Shown here: positions 22,101-23,229 of the stretch, in pieces | How the letters are laid out: each line of letters opens with the position of its first letter | Numbering within the stretch: position 1 is the first letter of the stretch | DNA from: a virus | DNA: 26,397 bases | Strand: one strand, 5' to 3' | Virus record (IMG/VR): IMGVR_UViG_3300048110_000031 | Coordinates: 1 to 26,397 of that record | Notes under the pieces: generated by a model | What the model was told of the DNA's origin: nothing | The model's input: only the letters and a program-made list of their open reading frames with translations | Database searches by the model: none | Program-made: the position numbers and the translations under genes

Positions 22101-22119
22101 GGATTAAAATAATTAATCC
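22101..22119 (-). other. Hairpin in the RNA polymerase leader
   Basis: A perfect 7-bp inverted repeat, GGATTAA-TTATT-TTAATCC, ends 17 bases before the GTG start of RNA polymerase and just before its ribosome site. It is AT-rich with no following U-tract, so it is not a typical terminator. It overlaps the ATCCRCCAACGGAT motif by four bases. Confidence 0.55.
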
Positions 22120-22129
22120 GTTGGTGGAT
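22116..22129 (-). promoter_or_regulatory. ATCCRCCAACGGAT motif, copy upstream of RNA polymerase
   Basis: On the minus strand this reads ATCCACCAACGGAT, 33 bases before the RNA polymerase start. A near-identical copy precedes SSB, and a degenerate one (ATCCGTTG-CGG, other orientation) lies at 22281-22291 in the integrase 3' end. It adjoins the left arm of the inverted repeat around the attachment site, so it could also be an arm-type integrase site. Confidence 0.5.
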
Positions 22130-22159
22130 AGTCGCTAAACTGTACGTTTACTTAGGTTT

Positions 22160-22235
22160 TCCTAGGTTACATCCCCTAAAGGATGCAATATTATGGATTT
22201 TCAGTCCTCTGCTCTACCAACTGAGCTACCTAGGC
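22160..22235 (-). other. tRNA-Phe-like sequence with degenerate 3' half
   Basis: The first 41 bases are a normal tRNA-Phe 5' half. The remaining 35 bases are not a normal tRNA: the anticodon 3' strand reads TCCAT, which pairs poorly with GAGGA, and there is no TTCRA loop. They do contain a CATCC/GGATG hairpin in the T-arm position and a CCTAGG that can pair with the 5' acceptor GCCTAGG in six of seven positions, for a total of 76 nt. I call it tRNA-like and do not claim a working tRNA. Confidence 0.5.
22195..22235 (-). other. Probable phage attachment site (attP core), tRNA-Phe(GAA) 5' half
   Basis: On the minus strand the sequence runs from GCCTAGG through the D-arm (TAGCTCAGTTGGTAGAGC) and the anticodon arm (GAGGA-CTGAAAA-TCC, anticodon GAA). 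It is a textbook bacterial tRNA-Phe 5' half and lies 40 bases downstream of a tyrosine integrase gene. Pelagiphage podoviruses are known to integrate at host tRNA genes with an integrase in this genome position. The core probably ends near TCC, where tRNA identity stops, with strand exchange near the anticodon loop. Confidence 0.82.
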
Positions 22236-22275
22236 ACATAAAAAAAACGTAACAGTTTAGCGGTCTATACATTAT

Positions 22276-23229
22276 TTATACCGCAACGGATACAGGAAAA
22301 TGATTTCTCTCATCCGTTCCAGGATTGTGAGATAACACCTTCATTGCATCCATAACCGTCTTATTATTTAACTTAGCGTACTGCATAGTTGTCTTGATAT
22401 CTTTGTGACCCATGATTTCTTTGACCACATAAATATCGACCCCACGCTGTACTAATCTTGATGCAGTCGTATGTCGTAACATATGAATACAAAAAGACTC
22501 ATCTTCTTCTTGGAAAGCAGTTCTCACTTCTTCCCGCCAGTTTCTCTGTACTGCCCAATAGTTATTAGGAAATACAGGTTCATCAGCTTTCTTACCAACA
22601 CAAAGGTCAAGCACTATCTCTCTAGCCCGTGGGATAAGCGGGATGATGCTATACTCGTTGTTGTTCATGTGCTTCCTGTCATACAAGTTGATGAAGTTTC
22701 CGCTGCGGTCAACATCACCTACTAAGAAGCCCTTCTTTTTACATGATGCAGGTGCATTACTATTGTGACCAATAGTTTCGGATAGCCGTAATCCTGTATC
22801 AATTTGGAATAGATAAAGATTCAAAAACTCTTCCATCTTTTTAGCTTTTAAAATCTCAACCAACCGCAGCTCCTCTTCGGGTTGCATGAACCTAAGTCGA
22901 TGCGACCCCTTTTCTCGCCAATCAAAATGTAAAGGCTCAAAGTCCTTCCCATAAATGCTTGGCTTGGCCTTGGCGTACTTTATCAAAGATGACAAAGCAC
23001 TGTAGTAGTGATTGATTGTTGAACCCGACAGTTCACGCTTGTCCAAAGCTTCTTCCAAACGCTCAATGTCTAAGTCATCAATCTCATTGACTAACTTTTG
23101 CGACCCAAAGAAATTAACAAGCCACTTGGCTCGTGATTTCTGTGCCTTATCTTTCTTGTTCCACACTTTAACACTTACCTTGTGGTACAGTTCCGATATG
23201 GTTCTAGGGTCATACTTTTTGTGTGTCAT
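22276..23229 (-). CDS. int: Tyrosine-type site-specific integrase
   Basis: A 317-aa phage integrase with a SAM-like N-terminal core-binding domain (about residues 25-95) and a complete catalytic domain. All six signature residues can be placed: R148 in DTGLRLSE, K186 in YDRKHMNN, H249 and R252 in HMLRH, H275 in MGHKD, and the nucleophile Y284 in TMQYAKL. It would join the phage circle to the host tRNA-Phe gene through the core at 22195-22235, just downstream of its stop codon. It follows the MarR-like gene by 10 bases and is probably co-transcribed with it. No separate excisionase was recognised; the ribbon-helix-helix protein upstream could serve that role. Confidence 0.95.
   Translation of the reverse strand: MTHKKYDPRTISELYHKVSVKVWNKKDKAQKSRAKWLVNFFGSQKLVNEIDDLDIERLEEALDKRELSGSTINHYYSALSSLIKYAKAKPSIYGKDFEPLHFDWREKGSHRLRFMQPEEELRLVEILKAKKMEEFLNLYLFQIDTGLRLSETIGHNSNAPASCKKKGFLVGDVDRSGNFINLYDRKHMNNNEYSIIPLIPRAREIVLDLCVGKKADEPVFPNNYWAVQRNWREEVRTAFQEEDESFCIHMLRHTTASRLVQRGVDIYVVKEIMGHKDIKTTMQYAKLNNKTVMDAMKVLSHNPGTDERNHFPVSVAV

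Follow-up and report, generated by a model that had tools for sequence, protein, structure and literature searches.

A palindrome type shared by the attachment site and the RNA polymerase locus of a T7-like phage and its relatives

Genes and sequence elements at the locus

The stretch of DNA analyzed in this work (the window) is a 26,397-base IMG/VR fragment of a T7-like phage, whose genes were named from annotation or profile matches and from gene order in relatives. Its minus strand carries genes for a MarR-like winged-helix protein (23240..23563; 107 aa; PHROG 9665), proposed below as the binder of a set of palindromes, a tyrosine integrase (int, 22276..23229; 317 aa, with Pfam PF00589 at residues 114-289), a T7-like RNA polymerase (RNAP, 19621..22083) and SSB (18946-19530). 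The interval under study (22116-22291) comprises the int-RNAP gap and the final int codons, and RNAP is flanked by this interval on one side and by a palindrome following its stop codon on the other. The order MarR, int, attP, RNAP, SSB is of the HTVC019P kind and is found alike in HTVC019P and other pelagiphages, whose attP also lies between int and RNAP; judged from its sequence, the interval represents the attP of such a T7-like phage.

The core of the interval is a 41-nt 5' half of tRNA-Phe(GAA) (22195..22235, minus strand), matched by the Rfam tRNA model at 30.6 bits on the minus strand (gathering score, 29). In six genome contigs, intact tRNA-Phe(GAA) genes begin with the same complete 41 nt; the core thus corresponds to part of a host tRNA gene, as in HTVC019P-type attPs. 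From the core common to relatives, the crossover was placed in the anticodon loop, within a 13-mer at 22195-22207 (minus strand; probable centre, 22201). A complete tRNA gene was ruled out: ARAGORN finds none, and in the full-length Rfam match the tRNA half is continued by a neighboring palindrome that acts as a pseudo-T-arm. In two close integrase relatives (L119 and L120), the attP contains the 3' half of tRNA-Phe instead of the 5' half.

A search for integrated copies with the MarR profile yielded matches in 11 genomes out of 385 and in 2 out of 369, and in none of the six genomes holding the tRNA-Phe half. Among the 13 matched loci (about 3.3 kb each), RNAP was found in none and Int in two (L213 and, with a weak detection, L217), so no attL or attR of the HTVC019P type was read. 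One of these loci (L213) is an integrated element with a MarR-like gene, a long integrase and a complete tRNA-Leu(CAA) directly after int.

The original prediction described the tRNA-Phe half as framed by inverted motif pairs forming an attachment site with two-part, mirror-like arms, and every motif it named was located in the window, including CGCTAAACTGTACG (22133-22146, plus strand) and CGCTAAACTGTTACG (22262-22248, inverted). Only two exact copies of the 11-mer CGCTAAACTGT exist in the 26.4 kb, and these constitute the inverted pair: the left, int-side inner arm (22252..22262, minus strand; centre at -56 from the crossover) and the right, RNAP-side inner arm (22133..22143, plus strand; +63). 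Outside them lie the half-sites GTATAG on the left (22265..22270, minus strand; -66.5) and GGATAG on the right (22126..22131, plus strand; CTATCC on the minus strand; +72.5). Farther out, ATCCGTTG occurs exactly at 22116-22123 (plus strand) and 22291-22284 (minus strand), and elsewhere in the window only at 19604-19611 (plus strand). The left-hand copy, which had been called degenerate, is thus intact as far as ATCCGTTG itself is concerned; the degeneracy affects only the second half of the palindrome to which it belongs (GTAT for GGAT). The left outer palindrome stands 17 bp outside its ATAG half-site (-83.5 and -66.5) and the right one 6 bp (+78.5 and +72.5). This difference of 11 bases corresponds to the extra bases that had been expected to break the symmetry and perhaps to give directionality; they are present but, at about one turn of the helix, do not necessarily disturb the symmetry. 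These mirror arms, candidate Int sites, flank the core as arm sites do in a lambda-type attP. The best ungapped inverted repeat of the interval scored 11.0, a value reached by none of 200 dinucleotide shuffles (mean 7.6, largest 10.5). A higher score (13.5) was obtained for one other of the 100 non-overlapping stretches of 262 nt examined along the contig, the one at 8123, and the inverted repeat alone is therefore not unique. That stretch (8123-8384) lies inside an open frame (7695-8426).

ATCCGTTG is one half of the palindrome ATCC-N6-GGAT, which occurs five times in the window (18720, 19604, 22116, 22171, and 22312) against 0.13 expected (100 shuffles; largest count, 2), with a one-mismatch copy at 22278. 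The left outer palindrome is TATCCGTTGCGGTATA (minus strand, 22277..22292; centre -83.5), with one mismatch to TATSC-N6-GSATA, and the right one is ATCCGTTGGTGGAT (22116..22129; +78.5). Two more belong to the same region: ATCCCCTAAAGGAT beside the core (22171..22184; +23.5), which supplies the pseudo-T-arm of the Rfam match, and ATCCGTTCCAGGAT in the int 3' end (22312..22325; -117.5). The palindrome ATCCGTTGGCGGAT (19604..19617) follows directly on the RNAP stop and precedes SSB, and the one at 18720 lies inside a gene. A tentative palindrome-like site with two mismatches (23865..23880) is located about 300 bp upstream of the MarR-like gene. As a window-wide repeat, ATCCGTTG with one mismatch allowed gave 27 occurrences vs. 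15.4 expected, a weak signal until the motif is read as a palindrome. In viral contigs, CGCTAAACTGTNACG was present in 90 stretches, of which L080, from the same contig as L002, was tied to the window phage.

L002, a contig of 27.9 kb, was the one close relative found (91.7% identity over about 5.8 kb aligned). The longest identical run of the alignment (305 nt, 22040-22344) spans attP, the second (106 nt, 23829-23934) lies upstream of MarR and includes the palindrome-like site at 23865, and the third (92 nt, 19571-19662) holds the post-RNAP palindrome; the three longest runs thus all carry palindromes or a palindrome-like site. Reading by eye also gave a short open frame, some 36 codons in length, in the second run, and a 42-aa gene is annotated upstream of MarR in several pelagiphages.

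Geometry of attP across relatives

The best 80 of 174 loci matched by an integrase profile were taken and, together with 16 phage records, L117 and the window, gave 98 loci representing 76 distinct regions (L094 and L149 are the same phage, and L118 and L002 the same contig); ProddE (L107) was left out of the comparison. All attPs were turned with the tRNA-identity half on the left and positions were counted from the crossover. Several choices were made by hand with the data already in view: the classes, the representatives, the five 13-mer cores, the consensus of the palindrome, and how L119 and L120 were oriented. The relatives fall into few lineages and are not independent.

In 54 of 62 distinct attPs, CTATCC was centred exactly at +72.5, the next commonest position accounting for five. 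GRATAG stood at -66.5 or -67.5 in 39/62. When up to two mismatches were allowed, a palindrome was present at +23.5 in 34/62, at +96.5 in 26/62 and at -128.5 in 18/62; the counterpart of the -117.5 palindrome of the window is found near -128 in many relatives. The background in the window, per position and strand, was 0.0002 for CTATCC and 0.0018 for the two-mismatch palindrome. The window keeps CTATCC at +72.5 although its Int is only about 33% identical to those of pelagiphages, and for that reason it offers the most independent check of the geometry, the 62 attPs being related to one another. Members of the tRNA-Cys class have the entire module turned around with respect to int and RNAP, with its internal distances unchanged. 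The tRNA, the letters of the inner arms and the orientation therefore vary among relatives while the layout is kept. The comparison among related phages, proposed in the original prediction as a check, did not give the refuting outcome named there, a kept core with neither flanking motif conserved: the half-site positions are conserved. This conservation did not extend to the inner arm letters, which differ between lineages, as in L117, where the same tRNA-Phe half as in the window is accompanied by GTAAGAGCGGA and TCCGCTCTTAC.

With frames fixed on the anticodon-loop core, the left arm of an attP resembled its own right arm (mean score 16.5 in 22 hand-chosen representatives) more than the arms of other classes (9.2 in 400 between-class pairs), and a direct-orientation control in an earlier set of 25 averaged 7.0. 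In that earlier set, two loci failed the fixed-frame test (L119, 6.0; L120, 9.0), and a free scan showed their arms at other offsets. Shuffle tests of single loci gave no uniform picture: all 40 shuffles were outscored in only 6 of 22 relatives, and for L122 and L153 as many as 27 and 25 of 40 shuffles, respectively, scored better. Seven loci (L139, L146, L158, L183, L191, L193, and L194) were left out of the arm scan on account of region length. Mirror-symmetric arms, which had been considered unusual, are usual in this lineage and not peculiar to the window phage. Two pelagiphage-like loci (L139 and L146) have an open integrase gene and just 26-29 nt from int to RNAP, a gap indicating that attP is missing there.

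The post-RNAP palindrome and the MarR-like gene

TATSC-N6-GSATA gave 49 forward hits in 40 records vs. a single one for the reversed pattern, with 26 of the 40 records, many of them related, containing a match; ATCC-N6-GGAT was less clean in the same records (30 vs. 10 reversed). One recurrent site of the TATSC type lies inside a gene (HTVC022P gp19, 12441). In most MarR-carrying relatives the first base of the post-RNAP palindrome is the third or fourth following the RNAP stop. Its presence, at one mismatch or fewer, was scored in 91 classable loci; L117, L177, L188, and L195 were left out for having too little upstream sequence, and L158, L187, and L191 for having no RNAP. Among loci with both a MarR-like gene and a recognized attP core, the palindrome was present in 50 of the 54 that could be scored (a further 20 were not scorable; the exceptions were L133, L134, L159, and L196), whereas MarR-less loci had it in one of 14 (L139; one more was not scorable), and random 28-nt stretches in 128 of 28,500. 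A recognized attP core between int and RNAP was found in none of the 15 MarR-less loci, and L146 keeps MarR and palindrome with no attP between int and RNAP. In the author's judgement the MarR-less loci form about three groups, which would correspond to about three independent losses. The sites, their geometry, their conservation and their co-occurrence with the MarR-like gene can be read directly from the sequence, and the earlier observation that ATCCGTTG is common to attP and the region upstream of SSB held beyond the window as a systematic feature, a post-RNAP palindrome being present in most MarR-carrying relatives.

The post-RNAP sequence also tends to resemble the attP of its own lineage. 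In 26 phages assigned to 10 hand-made lineages, the post-RNAP 26-mer scored a mean of 10.06 against its own attP and 7.92 against those of other lineages, and it was closer to its own in 9/10 lineages and 21/26 phages; the relation was reversed in lineage 6 and in five single phages. In HTVC119P, CRP-113, and S-TIP37 the recognition helix of the regulator differs and the TATSC palindrome is absent after RNAP; HTVC119P and CRP-113 have other post-RNAP sequences, which recur in their own attP. The tRNA-Arg lineage, however, has the same AQSSVSRN helix with a different palindrome, and in L101 and L097 the MarR sequence is identical but for its assigned start, yet the outer arm letters differ (judged by eye). 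Sites with up to one mismatch were present 310-354 bp upstream of MarR in just 7 of 27 loci scanned (two of the seven being the same phage), so that autoregulation of the MarR-like gene is only hinted at.

Some further elements were seen in these regions. A AAAGTACCCATAGTAGA-like motif, possibly a phage RNAP promoter, follows the post-RNAP palindrome in L117, L100, L138, L176, L186, and others, and also precedes RNAP in several phages. The L174-L195 group (e.g., L186 and L176) is T7-like with an integrase of 267-268 aa, and neither a MarR-like gene near the integrase nor an attP before RNAP was found in it. Matches to the Hammerhead type III ribozyme occurred in T7-like phage contigs (L183:362-416, L193:84-138, and L176:1587-1642) with 43.4, 43.4, and 38.9 bits, respectively, below the Rfam gathering score of 48.5.

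The structural model of the MarR-like protein (pLDDT 84) has the winged-helix MarR fold, with a Foldseek match to MepR (E 2.5e-5); the Pfam MarR_2 score was 19.7 bits, below the cut-off of 27. The MarR family has a long C-terminal dimerization helix; in the window protein the last helix is at 95-105, and with 107 aa the chain is shorter than the matched MarR and MepR chains (124-147 aa). The Int model, built with 18 sequences, was weak overall (mean pLDDT 65), with values of 82-90 in ten-residue blocks of residues 31-90. No strand of three or more residues appeared before residue 169, the N-terminal part being all-helical, and the best Foldseek matches were the Tn1549 integrase 82-397, XerA, and XerH. 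The N-terminal arm-binding domain of a lambda-type integrase was not seen in this weak model, which displays only helices there, and the window Int apparently does without it. The start of the catalytic domain lies at residue 114 in the window Int and at 107-113 in three of its relatives; it is at 133 in the annotated HTVC120P protein and at 161-162 in HTVC119P, CRP-113, and CRP-804, whereas in HTVC200P and CRP-227 the match begins inside the profile. The extra N-terminal residues of the long integrases are thus absent from the window protein. In the same scan, the phages with long integrases examined (HTVC119P, HTVC200P, CRP-113, CRP-227, and CRP-804) yielded no mirror arms of comparable length, their best arm scores being 9-14 in regions of different length. 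MarR-like genes are annotated beside long integrases as well (HTVC119P, HTVC200P, CRP-113, and CRP-804), so the MarR-like gene is not peculiar to short integrases.

A proposed mechanism, its alternatives and known systems

The reading that we favor, with a probability of roughly 60%, is that the MarR-like protein binds the palindromes of both attP and the post-RNAP site and thereby couples integration to the lysis-lysogeny decision. In this reading the interval contains all parts of a complete attP. Int would act at the anticodon loop of the tRNA-Phe 5' half, in which case the phage would supply the tRNA 5' half after integration. Around this core, a scaffold at fixed distances would be formed by the half-sites (-66.5/+72.5), the inner arms (-56/+63) and palindromes of the TATCC-N6-GGATA type at -117.5, -83.5, +23.5, and +78.5. 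The palindromes are most likely bound by the MarR-like protein encoded next to int, and Int would bind the core and perhaps the inner arms. Both proteins together would give attP a folded shape, serving its architecture or directionality, in which the crossover lies close to the midpoint between the mirrored arms, and the same MarR-like protein would bind the palindrome just after RNAP and repress phage transcription; a protein with both roles would couple integration to the lysis-lysogeny switch. We infer which protein binds which of the sites, as well as DNA bending, directionality and repression. The asymmetry needed for directionality could come from the two palindromes without a mirror partner (+23.5 and -117.5), which are better candidates for it than the 11 extra bases. 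A further step, which we put forward tentatively and hold to be somewhat less probable than its opposite, is that the repressor is a structural part of the integration complex that replaces the arm-binding domain absent from the short Int and sets both the direction of integration and entry into the lytic cycle; since the same palindrome type follows RNAP, the occupancy of one protein would set both.

In an alternative reading, all the flanking motifs would be classical arm-type sites of Int itself, and the resemblance of the post-RNAP site would then reflect Int binding or coincidence. Mirror arms around a tRNA core are indeed expected for a tyrosine integrase, the arms do flank the core, GRATAGTTG occurs mostly within attP (of its 36 hits in 22 records, 26 lie there by a count from gene positions), and the inner arms, which are not palindromic, may well be Int sites. 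As an explanation of all the motifs it is nevertheless unlikely: no N-terminal arm-binding domain was seen in Int, MarR-less loci keep the integrase and yet 13 of the 14 scorable ones are devoid of the post-RNAP palindrome, and the outer motif is palindromic, as expected of a dimeric repressor. With ATCCGTTG being half of a palindrome, the MarR-like protein is a better candidate than Int for binding it.

Less probable still is that the palindromes are purely transcriptional operators around RNAP whose location in attP is incidental to recombination. In its favor, palindromes do follow RNAP and may also precede MarR, and PMC10134795 hypothesizes that in temperate T7-like phages the promoter upstream of RNAP is flanked by MarR sites; the attP sites, however, stand at exact distances from the crossover and change orientation together with it rather than with the genes. 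We rejected as very improbable a role of the inverted repeats as RNA, whereby the int-RNAP transcript would form a long stem, or a structure for processing, with a tRNA-like fold at its tip: the minus-strand RNA folds at -60.9 vs. -39.3 kcal/mol in shuffles (z -5.8) and the full-length Rfam tRNA model matches above its gathering score, but no terminator-like site was found, the differences between arms (transitions only) lacked G-U bias (9 vs. 12), the module is inverted in the tRNA-Cys class, the Rfam match combines a tRNA half with the +23.5 palindrome, and ARAGORN finds no tRNA.

T7-like phages were long taken as purely lytic, and the integration of pelagiphages was reportedly described by Zhao in 2019. 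In the attP of phage lambda the core is flanked by arm sites, and lambda Int has an arm-binding N-terminal domain; the window shares the arm-flanked core but differs in that such a domain was not seen. The attPs of HTVC019P-type pelagiphages are the closest in layout, with the same gene order, a tRNA core between int and RNAP and, in most, the half-site at +72.5; the window differs from them in its Int (about 33% identical), its tRNA-Phe core, its longer inner arms CGCTAAACTGT and its outer palindromes on both arms. HTVC022P integrates at tRNA-Cys, according to PMC12753301. For T7-like cyanophages, PMC8776855 describes tRNA attPs and integration there, the requirement of both int and attP for integration of S-TIP37, and integration without stable lysogeny. 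S-TIP37 and P-SSP7 resemble the window in having an integrase and a tRNA attP downstream of int, but their core is tRNA-Leu; moreover, the S-TIP37 record contains no TATSC palindrome and its PHROG 9665 regulator has another recognition helix.

A role for MarR, with MarR sites flanking the RNAP promoter, is hypothesized in PMC10134795, which cites Boeckman 2022. The model presented there for LUZ100 and Pasto is similar to ours in placing a MarR-like gene next to int and proposed MarR sites near the RNAP promoter; it differs in that the sites are at the promoter and fixed-distance attP sites are not described, the word attP being absent from the text searched. RdfS of ICEMlSym(R7A), as described in PMC11963761, is a winged-helix directionality factor that binds attP and also controls transcription; it is an oligomeric Xis-like factor, in contrast with the MarR-like fold and the palindromic candidate sites of the window. 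No description of symmetric arms or shared palindromes in such attPs was found in the portion of the open-licence literature covered. Thus, tRNA attPs and MarR sites near RNAP are known or have been proposed, whereas the shared architecture of fixed geometry appears to be new.

The outcome of this work is a set of named sites, a named candidate protein and fixed spacings. The proposed model offers a simple reason why MarR-less loci are also without a recognized attP core between int and RNAP (15/15), and suggests that in these phages one regulator may link integration to the choice between dormancy and lysis.
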